A DNA stretch of 52,329 nt, from NCBI GenBank assembly GCA_002723085.1, contig PBNK01000017.1, forward strand, positions 1-52,329. Direction: 5' to 3'. The notes below the pieces were generated by a model that worked only from the letters and a program-made list of their open reading frames with translations, was not told where the DNA came from and did not search any database. The position numbers and the translations under genes are program-made. This DNA comes from Crocinitomicaceae bacterium. Lineage in GTDB: Bacteria > Bacteroidota > Bacteroidia > Flavobacteriales_D > Parvicellaceae. This document shows, one piece after another, positions 15,934 to 52,287 of the stretch; position 1 is the first letter of the stretch, and the number at the start of each line of letters is the position of its first letter.

Positions 15934-17799
15934 TTATTTAATAACAACTCTTTCAGAAATACTTCCTTTATCATTAGATATTTCAATGATATATACTCCA
16001 TTCCCATTTTCTGTTAAATCAATTGAAATTGAAGAACTTGAAACAGCATTATGAACAATTTTCCCTAATACATCATAAACAACAATAGTGTTTTCAGTAT
16101 TATTTAAATTTTCAATATTAATTATTCCATTTGAAGGGTTAGGGTAAATAGAAACATCTTCGTTTGTAGTCTCATTAACTCCTACAGACCAAGAATCTCC
16201 CATTAGCATTCTAATAGCAAAAGCATTACCATTAGTATATGATTGGTCATTTGGATAGTAAATTGCACTAGCCCAAGCAGGTTGTCCAACTGAGTTATCA
16301 TCTACAACTCTTATGTCATATGTGTTAGCTAAACTATTCATTTCAACAGCAGCATAATATACACCTGGATCAAGAGAAATGTTTCCCCAAATAGAAGTTT
16401 GGTTAACATCATCCCAGCCTAATTTTTCAACAAATGGGATATCGATATATCCATTAGAAATGTCAGTTGCAGATACAGTTAACAAATCAGAAGTGTAAAG
16501 TGCAGCAGAAAATATATTTCCAGCCATAAATTGTGAAGTGTCCATTATATGAGCAGTAACTTCAGCCCCAGCAACTGTTCCAGTTGCAAGCATAACTCTT
16601 AATCCAGAAACAACTTCAGATTGCTTAATAGTATAACAAGTAGCTAATATTGCCCCGTCAGCAAAACTTCCATCAGACCAAGAATTTGTCCCAAGTGATA
16701 CTAAGTTTTCATAAGCAGGAGGGTGAATTCCAATTCCATCCATTGAATAAATATCAGAAGTAATTTCAAAGTTTCTTTGATATACATTATCACCATCTGT
16801 AGATCCTCCAATAGTATCATTGTCTGAAGTTACTGTATATGTACCTTCATATAAACCAACAGAAAGAGAAAGTGTTTCATTAGTTTCTACAACATAAGAT
16901 GAGTCAGCTTCTATCAATGCAATTGTTGGATTACTTGAAAAAGAAACAAAGTCAGCGTCTACAGAAACATTTGTTTGATCATAAACACCATCATTTGCAA
17001 CTACAGCACCTATTGTCCAATCAGAATCAACTTGTGTTAATGGAGTTCTTCCATATTCTGTTCCACCATTATTAGTCCCTGAAATCCATGCGGTAACAGC
17101 TTCAACATTGTTAGCATCTTTTCTTGTGATTTTCACATCATCAACAGCCCAGTACCAAGCCCAGTAGTCGTTATCATCATAATAAAATTGAATTAAAACT
17201 TGAGATGAATTTCCACAAGTTGCAGAAACATCATAACTAGTTATTTCAGGATTCCCAGAATTTTGATCGTTAGGATATCCAGCATTATTTGTGATTTCAT
17301 ATTCAGTCCAGTTAGCACCATTGTCACCAGAAACTCTTACTCCTCTAGTATCTTGCCACCATCTGTAGTTATGAGAAAATGTTAAAACAACATTTGGTTC
17401 TGCAGACAAATCAATTGGCACAGTAAGCGTTGCTTGTGTAATGATTTGAGTACCATCACCATCACCACCACCTGAAGCATCAGAGTTAATAAATAAATAA
17501 CCGTTAGAAGCTGTAGCAGCATTAAAAGGTGCTAAAACTGAAACAGGTATTAAACCTGGATTAGTTTCAATTGTCCATTGATCTGGAATAGTACCTGTGC
17601 TTGTTATAGCCCAATCACTAGCCGTAGAAAAGTCATTTTCCCAAAGAGTAATTCCTTTTTGAGAAATATGATTAGTTGGTTTAACAACATTGTTATCAAC
17701 GTTGTGTTTTGTTAAGATTGGTGCTTTAATCTTTCCGCTTTGTGCAGAAACACCAGCCCCAACAGTTAATGAGATTAATAAAATGTATAATTTTTTCAT
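15934..17799 (-). CDS. T9SS-secreted protein with jelly-roll (MAM/lectin-like) domain
   Basis: Secreted protein of 621 residues, paralogous to its upstream neighbour. It has a signal peptide to about residue 19 (MKKLYILLISLTVGAGVSAQ). A beta-sandwich domain at about 50-230 follows, beginning LWENDFSTASDWAI and ending WAVDDVKITRK, a pattern of MAM/concanavalin-like domains in Bacteroidota surface proteins. A central beta-rich region with EYGRTPLTQVD comes next, then a conserved block with NSLANTYDIRVVDD and PAWASAIYYPN, and a T9SS type A sorting domain (IYPNPSNGIINIENL ... VYIIEISN). No catalytic motif is seen; adhesion or surface-layer roles are possible but unproven. Confidence 0.85.
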   Translation of the reverse strand: MKKLYILLISLTVGAGVSAQSGKIKAPILTKHNVDNNVVKPTNHISQKGITLWENDFSTASDWAITSTGTIPDQWTIETNPGLIPVSVLAPFNAATASNGYLFINSDASGGGDGDGTQIITQATLTVPIDLSAEPNVVLTFSHNYRWWQDTRGVRVSGDNGANWTEYEITNNAGYPNDQNSGNPEITSYDVSATCGNSSQVLIQFYYDDNDYWAWYWAVDDVKITRKDANNVEAVTAWISGTNNGGTEYGRTPLTQVDSDWTIGAVVANDGVYDQTNVSVDADFVSFSSNPTIALIEADSSYVVETNETLSLSVGLYEGTYTVTSDNDTIGGSTDGDNVYQRNFEITSDIYSMDGIGIHPPAYENLVSLGTNSWSDGSFADGAILATCYTIKQSEVVSGLRVMLATGTVAGAEVTAHIMDTSQFMAGNIFSAALYTSDLLTVSATDISNGYIDIPFVEKLGWDDVNQTSIWGNISLDPGVYYAAVEMNSLANTYDIRVVDDNSVGQPAWASAIYYPNDQSYTNGNAFAIRMLMGDSWSVGVNETTNEDVSIYPNPSNGIINIENLNNTENTIVVYDVLGKIVHNAVSSSSISIDLTENGNGVYIIEISNDKGSISERVVIK

Positions 17800-17874: not shown

Positions 17875-19767
17875 TTATTTTAAAATTACTTTTTCAGTAT
17901 AAATTTTATTGTTATTTAAAACTTCTACTATGTATGCTCCAGAATTAAAGTTGTTTAAATCTATAGATGCTTTTGCTGGGTAATTTTTAGAAAGCAAAAG
18001 TTTACCTGTTAAATCATAAATAGATACTATGCTGTTCAAATTATTTTCAGCATTAACATTAATTAAGCCATTAGAAGGATTAGGATAAATAGAAATGTTG
18101 TTAGCAACTTCTTTAACACCAACATTACCATCGCTTAATTTCATTCTTATAGCAAAAGCATTACCGTTTGTGTAAGATGTAGGGGGGCTTGATAATCCAA
18201 AATAAATTGCACTAGCCCATGCAGGTTGAGTAACAGTTTGATCATCAATAACTCCTATTGGGTAAGTGTTGGCTAAGCTATTTAATTCAATGGCTACATA
18301 ATATGCACCAGGGTTAATTTCAAATTCTTGCCATGTACTGCTATTTGTAGCTGGGTCCCATCCTGTATTAGTAACAGTTGGGATTTCTATGAATCCATTG
18401 GAAATATCCGAAGATTGTAAAGTGATTACATCAGAAGTATAAACATCATTAGTGTAAATTATACTATTCTTGAAACTAGCTGTATCTAAAATATGAACGA
18501 TTAATTCTGCCCCAGCCATAGAGCTTGATGATAGAAGTACTTGAACATTACTAATTGATGTGGGTTGTTGAATATCGTACATGCTAGCAACTATAAATCC
18601 ATCACTAGAAGAATTGTCAACAGATGTGGCCCAAGAAAAAGTTCCAGTGGAAGCTAAAGCCTCATACCCAGAAGGATGATTCCCAATCCCATCAATTGAA
18701 TAAACATCATTTGTGATTTCAAAGTTTCTTAAAAAAGAATTGTTGTTAAAATTAGTTGACCCTAAAGTATCAGCATCCGAAGAAGCAACAATATCTCCAT
18801 TGTATAAGCCAACACTTAAAGATAAACTTTCTAAATTTTCAACTGCTAAAGATGAATCGTTTTCAATTATTGCTGAAGTAGCTGTAGTAGAAAAACTTGA
18901 TGGACCAGTAAAAGTCCCATTTACAGTTACATTTGTTTGATCTAAAGCTCCATAATTGTAAATGTATGAACCAACATAATAGTTTTGTTCAACTTGAGAA
19001 ATAGGTGTTCTTCCATATTCTAGTCCATTGCTATTTTCTCCAAATATCCAAGATGATAAATTTTGAATATCATTATCAGGTAATACGGTAATTTTAACGT
19101 CATCAATCATCCATCCATATCCAGATCCATAGCTATCATCGTCACTTTGGTTTAACCATCTAAACCTTACTTTAGCATTAGAAGATCCACCAACATAATT
19201 TGAGATGTTTAGTGAATATACTTCTTGAATTGCTGGAGCATTAGTGACAACAGCATCATTTATTAAAACTTGTTGCCAAGTAACCCCGTTATCATTTGAA
19301 AACTCAATGTATGTTTCATCATAATTAAAAGCTCTATATCTTTGTTCAAATTCAATGGAAACACTTTGATACCCAGATAAATCAATAGAGCTAGCCATTT
19401 CAAGAGTAGCATCTTGAATATCTACAGTTGCGGTTAGTAAATATTGCACTGCATTAAAAACAGCAAAACCATCAGAAGCTGAAGTTGATGCCATAGCCCC
19501 CATGTATTGATCAACGTCACTAGGAGTAGAAGTAACTACTTGCCATTGTCCTTGAAGATTTGGGGCACTAATTGACCAGTTTGCAGCATTATCAAAACTA
19601 TCTGACCAAATTACAGTTGCAGATTTGTTTTGGTTTGTTTTTTTGCTTGGAGCAGTTTTAGTTTCAGTTAACTCTCCAATAAGACTTGGAAAATTAGTGT
19701 TTGCTTTTTGTCCCATAAAATTAATCGTAATAAGGGAACATAATAGTAAAGAGTAATATTTATTCAT
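17875..19767 (-). CDS. T9SS-secreted protein, tandem paralogue of the next gene
   Basis: 630-residue secreted protein with the same architecture as the gene at 15934-17799: signal peptide (MNKYYSLLLCSLITINFMGQ), a jelly-roll domain starting IWSDSFDNAANWSI and ending WMIDDVKITV, and a beta-rich centre with EYGRTPISQVE. The shared block with NSLANTYPIGVIDD and PAWASAIYFG follows, then a T9SS type A sorting domain (IYPNPSNGLINVNAE ... GAYIVEVLNN). The two genes are colinear and diverged, indicating an old tandem duplication. Translation starts at ATG 19765-19767. A promoter-like TTTG-N17-TATAATTG lies just upstream. No enzymatic motif was found. Confidence 0.85.
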   Translation of the reverse strand: MNKYYSLLLCSLITINFMGQKANTNFPSLIGELTETKTAPSKKTNQNKSATVIWSDSFDNAANWSISAPNLQGQWQVVTSTPSDVDQYMGAMASTSASDGFAVFNAVQYLLTATVDIQDATLEMASSIDLSGYQSVSIEFEQRYRAFNYDETYIEFSNDNGVTWQQVLINDAVVTNAPAIQEVYSLNISNYVGGSSNAKVRFRWLNQSDDDSYGSGYGWMIDDVKITVLPDNDIQNLSSWIFGENSNGLEYGRTPISQVEQNYYVGSYIYNYGALDQTNVTVNGTFTGPSSFSTTATSAIIENDSSLAVENLESLSLSVGLYNGDIVASSDADTLGSTNFNNNSFLRNFEITNDVYSIDGIGNHPSGYEALASTGTFSWATSVDNSSSDGFIVASMYDIQQPTSISNVQVLLSSSSMAGAELIVHILDTASFKNSIIYTNDVYTSDVITLQSSDISNGFIEIPTVTNTGWDPATNSSTWQEFEINPGAYYVAIELNSLANTYPIGVIDDQTVTQPAWASAIYFGLSSPPTSYTNGNAFAIRMKLSDGNVGVKEVANNISIYPNPSNGLINVNAENNLNSIVSIYDLTGKLLLSKNYPAKASIDLNNFNSGAYIVEVLNNNKIYTEKVILK

Positions 19768-47484: not shown

Positions 47485-48762
47485 TCAATATTTAATGCAA
47501 AAAAATGGAATTAACCCTTCAATTTCTTCACTTTCTGGGTTTCTTGCAAAAACCGTAGGCATAAGTCCCTTTACCCTTTTTTGAATAGAAAGTGTTTTTT
47601 CATCAAATAGCCAATCTTCAACAAATCCTAATGCAATAATCTCATCAACTGAGTATGGTACCATAAATTCAAGACGAATATTATAACCATTAGAATCATA
47701 TACAGGATAATCATTTTCATCTAAACTATCTCTAAAAATTTTAAAGGAACTGTTTTTTTTAATGTCTTCGTTAGATAATTCTTTAGAGAAAGGAAAGCCG
47801 TCTTTGTCAGGATTATATCCCCAACCAGCATCATAAATTCCTTTTACCTTCCAAAATCGGAGATGTCTTTTAGAATCTTCAGCTAGGTAGATAAGTTCTT
47901 GACAAAAATGGAACCTGAAATCAGCACTTAAATTGTTTGAGTACCAATTATTTTCTATAGTTTCTTCATTTTTTCTTCTAAAAATATGCCATGGCATATT
48001 TATTCTAGTGGACGTGCAAATGTTTTCTTTAATTGTGGTCATTTTAGCCTCATTGGCTTCTTTAGCACATGGTATGTAAATAAGGTCTTTAATACCCTCT
48101 ATTTCTCCTGATTCAGGATTTTCAAAAGGAACATTTAATGTGTAACCAATAACTTGTTTTTGAATTGGTGTAAACTCTCCAGTTTCATTATTTACATCGA
48201 ATGACCAATTTTCATAAAAGGTTATGGAAGTAACATCCTCTGGTTTGTAATCAATATAAATATCAATAGTAATAGGATTTCCGTTATCATCGTATTCAGG
48301 CTCACCGTATTCATCAATTTTAACCTCACTATATGCATATTGCAAATGAGGTTCATAAAATGATCCGTCTTCCTTTCTCTCCAAAGCCATAGCATTGAAA
48401 TTAGACATTCCAGGATCCATATTAAATAAACCATTAATTGGATTACAATCGTAGGCAGTTACCTCACCTGTACGCACTTTTTCAAAAACAGTTTTTACCA
48501 ACTTTAATCTTTCGTTTTCAGTCAGCCTTTCATTTTCTAATTTTTGAAGTTTCTCAGCATTAATTTGCATGTTTTCACCATTAATTTTACCAAACATATC
48601 GGTAGTAGTTTTAAGGGCAATTGGGATGGTGTAGCTTATGAACTGTTTGGTTGAAAACACAGGGTGTATAATGTTTTCGTGTAGTTCAACTTTAGGTTTG
48701 TTTTGAGTAAATGCACTACTAATAAAAAATAGCGAAAGGCATATCAGGATTGTTTTTTTCAT
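47485..48762 (-). CDS. GldN/PorN-like secreted protein with internal duplication
   Basis: 425-residue protein with a signal peptide to about residue 20 (MKKTILICLSLFFISSAFTQ). GldN/PorN proteins form the periplasmic ring of the T9SS with GldK/PorK. Features resembling them here are VRTGEVTAYDCNP (98-108) and the pattern ExWxFD with a conserved hydrophobic ending. That ending occurs twice: 158-232 (YENWSFD ... IGYTLNVPFENPESGEIEG) and 355-425 (VEDWLFDEK ... VFARNPESEEIEG), so the domain is duplicated in tandem. Canonical GldN is about 300 residues and has one copy. The neighbouring genes are not gldKLM, so this is a GldN-related paralogue rather than certainly GldN itself. Confidence 0.6.
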   Translation of the reverse strand: MKKTILICLSLFFISSAFTQNKPKVELHENIIHPVFSTKQFISYTIPIALKTTTDMFGKINGENMQINAEKLQKLENERLTENERLKLVKTVFEKVRTGEVTAYDCNPINGLFNMDPGMSNFNAMALERKEDGSFYEPHLQYAYSEVKIDEYGEPEYDDNGNPITIDIYIDYKPEDVTSITFYENWSFDVNNETGEFTPIQKQVIGYTLNVPFENPESGEIEGIKDLIYIPCAKEANEAKMTTIKENICTSTRINMPWHIFRRKNEETIENNWYSNNLSADFRFHFCQELIYLAEDSKRHLRFWKVKGIYDAGWGYNPDKDGFPFSKELSNEDIKKNSSFKIFRDSLDENDYPVYDSNGYNIRLEFMVPYSVDEIIALGFVEDWLFDEKTLSIQKRVKGLMPTVFARNPESEEIEGLIPFFCIKY

Positions 48763-49734: not shown

Positions 49735-49788
49735 ACCTAACGTTATGGCTAAATCAAGTTATATAATTTGGTTTAGGTATTGTTGTAG
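49735..49788 (-). repeat. attC-like palindromic repeat, copy 1
   Basis: Read on the minus strand: outer box CTACAAC (49788-49782), spacer AATA, inner arm CCTAAACCAA (49777-49768), 10-base loop, inner arm TTGATTTAGC (49757-49748), spacer CATAAC, outer box GTTAGGT (49741-49735). The inner arms pair at 8 of 10 positions. The final GTTAGGT fits the integron core consensus GTTRRRY. Over the aligned 50 bases it differs from copy 2 at 5 positions. The stop codon of the small gene at 49754-49987 lies inside this repeat. Confidence 0.7.
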
Positions 49789-49987
49789 AAATGTTTTTTA
49801 ACTCAGGAGCTTGTATAATAGAAAGCTCTTGATTAATTGAATTGAAGTCATGTAGTAAAAAGGAAATTCCAATTGTAGGTGATTTGGCTAAGTTGAATTT
49901 TACTGTGGAATCTTTATTATATATAGGGTCTTGAGCAATAAAAAATAATGATTTAAAAATTATAATAGATACTAATAGTTTTTTCAT
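49754..49987 (-). CDS. Short secreted protein ending in the repeat; possibly truncated
   Basis: 77-residue protein with a signal peptide (MKKLLVSIIIFKSLFFIAQ) and a short mature part (FNLAKSPTIGISFLLHDFNS). That part recalls the start of longer Bacteroidota outer-membrane proteins. The last residues (PKPNYIT) and the TGA are encoded by repeat copy 1. Either this is a natural short cassette protein or a longer gene cut off by the repeat. A good -7 box (TATCTTTG, 50011-50018) lies 24 bp upstream. It is the only gene between the two repeat copies. Confidence 0.55.
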   Translation of the reverse strand: MKKLLVSIIIFKSLFFIAQDPIYNKDSTVKFNLAKSPTIGISFLLHDFNSINQELSIIQAPELKNISTTIPKPNYIT

Positions 49988-50010
49988 AATTATTGATATT
50001 TGTGTTTGTA

Positions 50011-50037
50011 CAAAGATAAGTTTTTAATTTTCTACAA
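50011..50037 (-). promoter_or_regulatory. Promoter of the small cassette-like gene
   Basis: The minus strand reads TTG (50037-50035), a 16-base spacer, then TATCTTTG (50018-50011), an exact -7 consensus. The -33 TTG lies within the outer box of repeat copy 2, so the promoter straddles the proposed recombination site. Confidence 0.6.
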
Positions 50038-50085
50038 CGTTACGGCTAAACCAAGTTATGCAATTTGGTTTAGCTATTGTTGTAG
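50032..50085 (-). repeat. attC-like palindromic repeat, copy 2
   Basis: Read on the minus strand: CTACAAC (50085-50079), AATA, GCTAAACCAA (50074-50065), 10-base loop, TTGGTTTAGC (50054-50045), CGTAAC, GTTGTAG (50038-50032). The inner arms pair perfectly over 10 bp and the outer boxes over 7 bp, separated by unpaired spacers of 4 and 6 bases. It starts 10 bp after the stop of the 512-residue lipoprotein gene. The structure resembles attC (R-box, unpaired spacer, L-box, loop), but the core GTTGTAG departs from GTTRRRY and no extrahelical bases are seen. Confidence 0.75.
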
Positions 50086-50095
50086 GTATTTAAAT

Positions 50096-51634
50096 TCATT
50101 CATTATCAAATGACCATTGTAACCATGGACTATTATCGTTACTAAGGTTTTCAACATGGATTTTTAATTTTTTGTTTTCACTTTCGGTTAACACATTAGC
50201 TGCTAAAATCTGATTAAGCTCTTCAATAACTTCATTTTTATTACAACATATTCCCATATCATCCTCTTTTCTTGGGTCGTAGAATATATAGTCTATTGCA
50301 TCATCATGAATTTTTTCTATAATTTTTTTTAAATCTTTAATGTGTTCAGTACTTAACTCATTAAATTCTTCATTATATATTTTATGTTTTTTAACTAAAG
50401 AAGTTTCTTTTTTGAAATAATTTAAAAAAGCCCCTTTACCTAAAAACCATGTCCTGTAAAAGTCAGCACCTGCCATCCATGCACCGAATTTATCATTGTC
50501 ATGTAGCGCTCCTTCACTGTGAGCAGACAAGAAGTCAAAAAAATCATCATCTGCTTTTCCAGAAGTTGCTGATGCTCGATCCGAATACATATTAAAAGAA
50601 ATTGTAAAGCCACATTGGTAGTAAGAATATAAATGACAATTTTTAAACCCAATACCACTTTTCTCCAATGATATTGATTCGATTCCGAATTCCTCATCTT
50701 CATCCTTGGCCAATATATTTAAACTATCTTTTATAGCTGCTAATTCAATAAAAGATTGAATGACTTCCCAATCTTTGTCAGTACTGTAAAGAGTTTTTAA
50801 TGCATGCTCCATTTTAATTATGGATGATTCAGATAGGAGATTGCTTAACTTGGTTCTTTCCTCAGAGATAAACTGAACTTCACTGCTAATTATGGTGTCA
50901 CTAATTGAAGCTTTTTCATCAGATGTGCTGTCTCCTGGAATGATATTTTTGTTGAGCTCACCAGAATAATATAAATCCAACAAACGTTTGAGGTATATCA
51001 ATTCAGGTCCCATTATACTATAATATTCTCTATCTAAATTTAAGTATAACTCACTCACGTCTTTGAGTGTTTTTTTCATAGGATATTGTTGATGAATTTG
51101 CAATTTAAGGAGTTCACACAATACATTATGGTTCACTAGGAATTCTCCCACATCATCCAATAAACAGTCTGAATAATAAAGGACACTTCTTAATGCAGCC
51201 TCCTTTTCTTTTCCGAAAGATAATTCTGATAATCTTTCATAATAATCTGAAATGGGGCAATGATATTGGTAATAATCTGAAGCATCCCCCAATTCTTCCG
51301 GCCATGAATTTTTAATACTATCAATGCTCTTTAATACCTTATTTTTGTCTTGTTCTATTTTTCTCAGTTCGTCATGGCTAGGTATTTCGACATCGTTAAA
51401 AAATAAATAGATTGCAGAATCTACGGAGGCTATTAGAGAATCCTTATCTGCATTTGGAAAAAACAAAATTATCAATGAATCTAATGTGTCTGTTTTTTGA
51501 ACTGGTGTTTTAGATGCATGTTCATTAATGTCTATTATTTTAGAATCTTTATCTACCTTGTTGTTAGTTAAATCATTTTTACAAGAAAATAGGATGGAAA
51601 ATATTACTATGTAAATTATTTTATTTTTTTTCAT
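50096..51634 (-). CDS. Large lipoprotein of unknown function
   Basis: 512-residue protein with a lipoprotein signal peptide (MKKNKIIYIVIFSILFSCKN; Cys18). The rest is predicted mostly helical and acidic, with repeated Leu/Asp-rich stretches (for example LLKLQIHQQYPMKK, YSGELNKNIIPGDS). No family is recognised. It follows the 216-residue lipoprotein gene after only 2 bases, so they are one operon, and its stop is 10 bp before repeat copy 2. The 42 bases upstream of the operon reach the window edge. Confidence 0.7.
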   Translation of the reverse strand: MKKNKIIYIVIFSILFSCKNDLTNNKVDKDSKIIDINEHASKTPVQKTDTLDSLIILFFPNADKDSLIASVDSAIYLFFNDVEIPSHDELRKIEQDKNKVLKSIDSIKNSWPEELGDASDYYQYHCPISDYYERLSELSFGKEKEAALRSVLYYSDCLLDDVGEFLVNHNVLCELLKLQIHQQYPMKKTLKDVSELYLNLDREYYSIMGPELIYLKRLLDLYYSGELNKNIIPGDSTSDEKASISDTIISSEVQFISEERTKLSNLLSESSIIKMEHALKTLYSTDKDWEVIQSFIELAAIKDSLNILAKDEDEEFGIESISLEKSGIGFKNCHLYSYYQCGFTISFNMYSDRASATSGKADDDFFDFLSAHSEGALHDNDKFGAWMAGADFYRTWFLGKGAFLNYFKKETSLVKKHKIYNEEFNELSTEHIKDLKKIIEKIHDDAIDYIFYDPRKEDDMGICCNKNEVIEELNQILAANVLTESENKKLKIHVENLSNDNSPWLQWSFDNE

Positions 51635-51636
51635 AA

Positions 51637-52287
51637 TTATTCAAAATACTTGCACTCGAATTTTTTAGTGCGGTAAAGTTTATTTTTGTCCATATCATAA
51701 ATCAATTTCTCAACATATCCAATACCATATCCAATATCAATTAATCGCTGAGGACATTTAGGTTTATTTGCTTCTTTTTTAATTTCTACCTGATTAAAAA
51801 AATGAATTTGATTGTTTACTACTTTCAATTCATCCACATATCCGTTTTCGAAAATTATTTTTTGATTACTGAGATCATAAATTGTTAAATCTCTCATTTG
51901 TCCAGTACCCTGATCTATAATCATGTAATTATCAATCAACCCTTTAAAATAACGCCCCCAATCTTCTCCAATAGTGAATGTTGATTGATCTTTTACATTA
52001 ACAATAGTTATTACATGTCCATTGGTTTCTTTATGTGTAGTTGTGGTTATTTGGTAAGATTGGTAATCATAAATTTTGTTCTCTTCATTAATTGTCAATT
52101 CATAAAGATCTGTCTTCATAAGTGTATTCCCTTTTAGCATAAGTGCTTTTTCATCTGCATCCATCTTTAGTTCACTACCTTCAGTTTTAGGATTATCAAC
52201 TTTTAATAGACTATTATTTATGGATGTATTACATGAAAAAAAGACCATAGAGGCAATAAAAAATAGGATCTTAAATGAATTACTCAT
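51637..52287 (-). CDS. Lipoprotein of unknown function
   Basis: 216-residue protein with a lipoprotein signal peptide (MSNSFKILFFIASMVFFSCN; Cys19). The mature part looks beta-rich, with repeated short strands (YDYQSYQITTTTHKETNG, GRYFKGLIDNYMIIDQG, QMRDLTIYDLSNQKIIFENG) that could form a small beta-propeller or lipocalin-like fold. I do not recognise a family. It precedes the 512-residue lipoprotein gene with a 2-base gap. The start ATG at 52285-52287 is the first in frame, and its promoter region is cut by the window edge. Confidence 0.7.
   Translation of the reverse strand: MSNSFKILFFIASMVFFSCNTSINNSLLKVDNPKTEGSELKMDADEKALMLKGNTLMKTDLYELTINEENKIYDYQSYQITTTTHKETNGHVITIVNVKDQSTFTIGEDWGRYFKGLIDNYMIIDQGTGQMRDLTIYDLSNQKIIFENGYVDELKVVNNQIHFFNQVEIKKEANKPKCPQRLIDIGYGIGYVEKLIYDMDKNKLYRTKKFECKYFE

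Follow-up and report, generated by a model that had tools for sequence, protein, structure and literature searches.

The question raised by this locus is whether two similar palindromes, each at the 3' end of a minus-strand gene, are attC sites that bound a mobile gene cassette, and which recombinase could have placed it there. The window, i.e., the whole stretch of DNA that was analyzed (52,329 nucleotides), is an entire contig (C17) of a Flavobacteriales MAG with a size of 2.43 Mb (46 contigs, 95% complete), among whose relatives is a MAG of Crocinitomicaceae.

Two palindromes and the 297-bp segment between them

The palindromes lie at 49735-49788 and 50032-50085 in the same orientation and were identical at 45 of 50 bases (90%, over 49739-49788 and 50036-50085). 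On the minus strand, which is the coding strand of the adjacent ORFs, the first reads CTACAAC-AATAC-CTAAACCAA-ATTATATAAC-TTGATTTAG-CCATAAC-GTTAGGT, thus ending in GTTAGGT, and the second reads CTACAAC-AATA-GCTAAACCAA-ATTGCATAAC (loop)-TTGGTTTAGC-CGTAAC-GTTGTAG. Both follow a plan of an outer 7-bp box, spacers of 4 and 6 bases, inner arms of about 10 bases and a loop of 10 bases. Sequence comparison confirmed the coordinates, orientation and identity given in the original prediction, and the arrangement of boxes, spacers, arms and loop was as described there. Its placement of both sites at the 3' ends of minus-strand genes also held, with a 512-aa ORF stopping 11 bp before the site at 50032-50085 and the stop of a 77-aa ORF (49754) falling inside the site at 49735-49788. 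As a DNA query, the repeat had significant matches in the genome only to this pair (E 1.5e-26 and 2.7e-13; next best E 0.46). With a covariance model (R1), the site at 50032..50085 (minus strand; attC site 2) scored 70.1 bits (E 7e-12, own genome), and the site at 49735..49788 (minus strand; attC site 1), which forms the 3' end of the 297-bp segment, scored 65.6 bits. Site 2 folded far better than shuffled sequences (DNA z -5.3 and -4.1 for the two strands), and site 1 had a fold of -5.8 kcal/mol on the bottom strand versus -1.3 kcal/mol on the top strand.

Integron cassettes are inserted from a circular form that is cut at G^TT. As a consequence, the R' and R'' boxes at the two ends of a cassette are complementary, even though each belongs to a different attC site. 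In the window, the R' box GTTGTAG at the 5' end (50032..50038, minus strand) has its reverse complement in the R'' box CTACAAC at the 3' end (49782..49788, minus strand), and such exact complementarity is, as far as sequence alone can tell, what the insertion of a circular cassette at G^TT leaves behind. The complementary boxes and the site spacing of 297 bp delimit a complete gene cassette of 297 bp at 49741..50037 (minus strand), which begins with the TT that follows the cut at G^TT in site 2 and closes with the G of GTT in site 1. Site 2 is accordingly read as the end of the preceding cassette, and the sequence from its GTT onward as the start of the 297-bp cassette.

The cassette encodes the 77-aa ORF with a signal-peptide-like start (49754..49987, minus strand), whose stop lies inside site 1 and for which no protein family was found. 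Between R' and this ORF, the sequence TATCTTTG (50011..50018, minus strand) fits TAnnTTTG, the consensus of the Bacteroidota -7 promoter, and is by inference a possible cassette promoter. The ORF call for the preceding cassette gave the 512-aa ORF with a lipoprotein-like start (50096..51634, minus strand), for which no protein family and only one weak homologue in 59 relatives were found. A 216-aa ORF (51637..52287, minus strand) lies 2 bp before it with no attC site in between, and the two probably form one two-gene cassette whose 5' end is beyond the contig end.

A GldN-like gene (47485-48762) is located just beyond the array. It served as a query for a syntenic empty site and had a close homologue (72%) only in genome G026; weaker ones occur in other places, among them a second copy on contig C31. 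An empty site left intact was not found for the window cassette. Elsewhere in the window, diverged direct-repeat blocks at 16099-16777 and 18040-18730, about 1.95 kb apart and 74-79% identical, are probably paralogous genes.

Distribution and end-complementarity of the sites

The covariance model was built from a 23-site alignment in which sites had been picked by a TAAA/TTTA seed; it has a bias toward one clade, and the stretches of array under study had been selected for containing sites. In the own genome the model identified nine attC sites, all 3' of unrelated ORFs and in the same direction as these: two in the window (C17:50032 and 49735), six on contig C5 (29441, 27238, 26864, 26168, 24548 and 22747) and one on contig C26 (48141). 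The six C5 sites lie on one strand, in the direction of a tyrosine recombinase gene and within 8 kb of its 3' end. The genome-wide search by covariance model that the original prediction had proposed thus gave the expected picture of copies following unrelated ORFs, six of them by a tyrosine recombinase. At least one site was present in 51 of the 150 genomes searched (own genome included), with a maximum of 20 per genome.

Among 63 pairs of neighboring sites drawn from the own genome, relatives and one related locus, the R' box matched the R'' box of the next site at all four variable bases in 31 pairs, whereas 10,000 shuffles gave 2.4 such pairs on average and never more than 10; the window cassette is among the matches. 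Matching of the outer boxes within a site was rare (6/92). End-complementarity was also found in 5 of 7 cases for an independent attC type of 132 bp in the Flavobacteriaceae Winogradskyella, Lacinutrix, Psychroserpens and Xanthomarina. We regard this R' to R'' complementarity, a sequence signature, as the strongest evidence for present or past mobile cassettes.

Compensatory changes occurred in 6 of 10 inner-stem pairs of the 23-site alignment, where the invariant pairs are so by construction because of the TAAA/TTTA seed. The core read GTTR in all 70 sites examined (GTT being required), followed by G/T, A/C/G and any base. Across all arrays, the start of a cassette showed an extended motif in which, numbered from the G of GTT, position +11 is A in 93% and position +12 is T in 84%; the flank after the window site at 49735 is without this motif, and the array may therefore end there.

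Other search strategies were less informative. In the related loci, scanning for strict palindromes (outer 6/7, inner 9) gave no sites, and a relaxed scan performed no better than reversed controls. These scans had wrongly presumed R''/R' pairing within a site and were for that reason replaced by direct-repeat evidence and the covariance model. Matches to the simple pattern ACAACG-N-GTTGT were mostly due to chance, and a plasmid search gave nothing useful.

The recombinase gene and the palindromes beside it

The original prediction stated that no integrase was in view, which is correct for the window but not for the genome, where an IntI/XerA-like tyrosine recombinase gene (L013:8307-9141) lies on C5 directly upstream of the attC array and in the same direction. 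A frameshift within a run of A interrupts this copy, and an assembly error cannot be distinguished from a real mutation; in the same-genus genome G001 the gene is intact and encodes 277 aa. The recombinases matched the integron integrase profile TIGR02249 in two blocks (about 2-180 and 238-315) with 197-238 bits against a cut-off of 265, and true IntIs in the same search (L102 and L103) gave unbroken alignments of 382-384 bits. Profile positions of about 180-238, i.e., the IntI-specific I2 or additional domain, are missing, and a MAFFT alignment displayed the gap directly. Most recombinase members tested scored above the cut-off of NF040815 (XerA), and the catalytic residues R132, K157/K160, H221, R224, H247 and Y256 were invariant in alignment A3. 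A tree separated the family from the two other Xer-type enzymes of the genome (C41 and C13) and left its place relative to IntI unresolved. The nearest solved proteins by sequence were XerA and VchIntIA, and the match to VchIntIA was in two stretches; for an AlphaFold2 model (pLDDT 83.7), XerA was closest by E-value and VchIntIA (2A3V) by TM-score (0.76). Judged by these profile and alignment data, the enzyme does not belong to IntI sensu stricto.

The upstream neighbors of the recombinase (aroQ-, maf-, UbiA- and HAD-like genes and others, named from sequence) are syntenic in six genomes (G000, G001, G004, G014, G019, and G021 as far as its contig reaches). Of the genomes with downstream sequence, no two have an ORF in common on that side; this holds even for G007 and G014, despite a recombinase identity of 97%. 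A conserved palindrome, AATAAACGTAATACGTTTATT, directly follows the recombinase stop and is succeeded by a few bases, GTT and then unrelated sequence. Identity across this junction was 0.73 before, 1.0 in GTT and 0.38-0.42 after it, so that genomes with a common platform diverge exactly at G^TT, as the original prediction had anticipated for a comparison of strains. We interpret the near-perfect palindrome with GTT 3' of the recombinase as attI, an assignment made from sequence.

Other palindromes with a GTT junction were observed in eight Flavobacteriaceae loci (Winogradskyella-type), Tenacibaculum, Algoriphagus/Roseivirga and Labilibaculum. In Marinimicrobia (L043, L044, L048, L052, L063, L065, L075, L076 and L085), an attC-like palindrome with GTT lies on the divergent side of the recombinase, as in the classical integron layout. 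Several Flavobacterium and other loci had no clear palindrome plus GTT at the corresponding place.

Copies of the attI palindrome numbered four in G007, three in G014 and G021, and two in the own genome, G001, G004, G012 and G016; the reversed control pattern had none. Copies away from the recombinase (L195:8785-8804, equal to C26:48784-48803, and L240-L260) were almost all followed by GTT, in either direction. Most of these dispersed copies have GTT and a cassette after them, amounting to several landing sites per genome. The C26 copy carries one cassette with matching ends (GTTATGGG...CCCATAAC); the stretch common to it and the C5 copy is only about 38 bp long, and this gives the rough limits of attI. 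There is no attI in the window, and its array probably hangs on a further one beyond the contig end; this is an inference, which predicts that attI (AATAAACGTAATACGT..C^GTT) or a further attC site follows position 52329 of C17.

Contigs ended within 300 bp beyond the recombinase in 12 of 39 minus-strand matches. Contigs of isolates and MAGs often end less than 300 bp 3' of the recombinase (L030-L109), and arrays therefore appear to break short-read assembly and to be under-sampled. Co-occurrence of the recombinase with this attC type over the 150 genomes was modest (p 0.05 for any site, 2.5e-4 for at least three sites), because attC types differ between clades.

Mechanism, alternatives and implications

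The copies of the sites, the R-box complementarity and the divergence at G^TT support the attC/integron reading of the original prediction. We conclude with high confidence that the window contains a complete cassette and two attC sites of a chromosomal array that belongs to an integron-type system with an I2-less recombinase; recombination activity is untested. In this proposed system, an IntI/XerA-related recombinase without the I2 helix would excise circular cassettes and insert them at G^TT, its catalysis being inferred. An attC hairpin, probably the folded bottom strand, would be joined to the palindromic attI or to another attC, and the single-stranded substrate is likewise inferred. Insertion would split the R box, which would explain both the complementary R' and R'' ends of a cassette and the origin of the outer 3' half of an attC site from its neighbor. 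The recombinase would act from C5, beside attI and six attC sites, on arrays that include the one in the window, elsewhere in the genome. The window itself has neither recombinase nor attI, and its tie to the enzyme is via homologous sites only. The frameshift in the own copy of the recombinase and its modest co-occurrence with this attC type also count against the explanation.

The main open alternative is a sub-variant of this explanation and differs only in the form of the substrate: real cassettes would be moved by the same I2-less enzyme through duplex recombination of the Xer/Cre type, with the attC palindrome providing paired binding sites. The recombinase is XerA-like and without I2, attI is a near-perfect palindrome, and the sites are without extrahelical bases, all of which would suit a duplex substrate. 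The absence of extrahelical bases had been claimed in the original prediction and is borne out for the short type only, as 56 of 64 short sites had no asymmetric bulge in the bottom-strand fold. According to published work, I2 is needed for single-strand recombination (PMC4792948, PMC7790495) and IntI cannot function without it (PMC8138268, PMC7790495); this speaks against attC reacting as a single strand in the present system. However, thermodynamic prediction for ssDNA gave a more stable bottom strand in 58 of 69 sites (Wilcoxon p 8e-10, inner cores) and in 10 of 11 long (132-bp) sites. The loop opposition, A.C on the top strand and a G.T pair on the bottom strand, was invariant in the 23-site alignment and favors a strand-specific hairpin, and outer-box pairing within sites is mostly absent. 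We therefore consider a duplex substrate unlikely, though a serious competitor to the folded bottom strand.

It is very improbable that these are classical cassettes moved by a canonical, I2-bearing IntI that is absent from the assembly or was active in the past. The attC plan and the R-box complementarity are as in classical cassettes, and the MAG is fragmented and incomplete. Nevertheless, the own genome had no IntI match over the cut-off, arrays lie directly behind the I2-less recombinase in several genomes, and the short sites do not have the extrahelical bases. None of the 150 relatives had a TIGR02249 match at E<=1e-50, but the positive control was likewise silent, making this weak evidence of absence. 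A MITE or dispersed REP-like palindromic repeat with no tie to cassettes, the alternative that the original prediction had left standing, would account for short palindromes in several copies and is scarcely credible, as the mere nine copies are clustered cassette ends in tandem after ORFs, in the same direction, with the R'/R'' signature between neighbors and attI junctions at GTT, and are not dispersed away from gene ends. Intrinsic transcription terminators conserved by chance would likewise place hairpins at gene 3' ends and were rejected as no more plausible, since conserved GTT/AAC boxes, strand bias and end-complementarity are not expected of them.

The preferred integron-type system resembles chromosomal (sedentary) integrons (IntI/attI/attC) in its tandem, same-direction cassettes with each ORF ending in an attC palindrome, its GTT core, complementary R boxes and bottom-strand fold bias, and its platform-linked recombinase with hypervariable cargo. 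On C5 and in relatives, not in the window, it also has attI beside the recombinase and insertion at G^TT. In contrast to chromosomal integrons, the recombinase is without I2, the short attC sites are without extrahelical bases, attI is palindromic and sits at the 3' end of a recombinase gene that points the same way, and extra attI copies lie elsewhere. Given the missing IntI-specific domain and extrahelical bases, the system is a variant and not a textbook integron. The recombinase shares the absence of I2 and the domains with XerA (5HXY, 4A8E; NF040815); unlike XerA, it adjoins attI and cassette arrays, in a genome with two other Xer-type recombinases. The window array without an adjacent integrase resembles a CALIN (attC cluster without integrase), from which it differs by the I2-less recombinase and the attI copies elsewhere in the genome. 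A subgroup of tyrosine recombinases described as "integron-like" (Smyshlyaev et al, 2021, PMC8138268) likewise falls between Xer and IntI by sequence. In the parts of that study we could consult, the insertion is not conserved across the whole subgroup; it is nonetheless called essential for integron function, and insertion-less members are not tied to cassettes.

I2 recognizes extrahelical bases, both have coevolved, and the unclear order of their origin has been termed a "chicken-egg paradox" (Escudero et al, PMC4792948). Integron surveys define integrases through the IntI-specific domain (PMC9668308, PMC2426708), and surveys that depend on an I2 profile cannot see the present system because its recombinase is without I2. 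With IntegronFinder 2.0, a complete integron in Bacteroidetes proper was found only for Salinibacter ruber, and the absence of integrons from some clades was called intriguing (PMC9024848). We found no description of I2-less integrons in the open-access literature, although an earlier one is not excluded. In the sequences at hand, I2 and extrahelical bases, the pair said to define integrons, are missing together. Only tentatively, and with slightly less than even confidence, do we propose a primitive type of integron in which an I2-less recombinase acts on attC hairpins that have no extrahelical bases and serves several attI sites of one genome in trans; it would be a missing intermediate or a lineage that lost both features, widespread in Bacteroidota and Marinimicrobia and overlooked as surveys require the I2 profile. 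Whether the absence of I2 and bulges is ancestral or derived is not settled; a system without both fits the chicken-egg problem.

The finding would mean that marine Bacteroidota and Marinimicrobia have a large gene-capture system built on a recombinase without the IntI-specific domain. Its arrays, with neither I2 nor extrahelical bases, would be natural material for testing the model of coevolution between the two, and represent a large unread pool of cassette genes.
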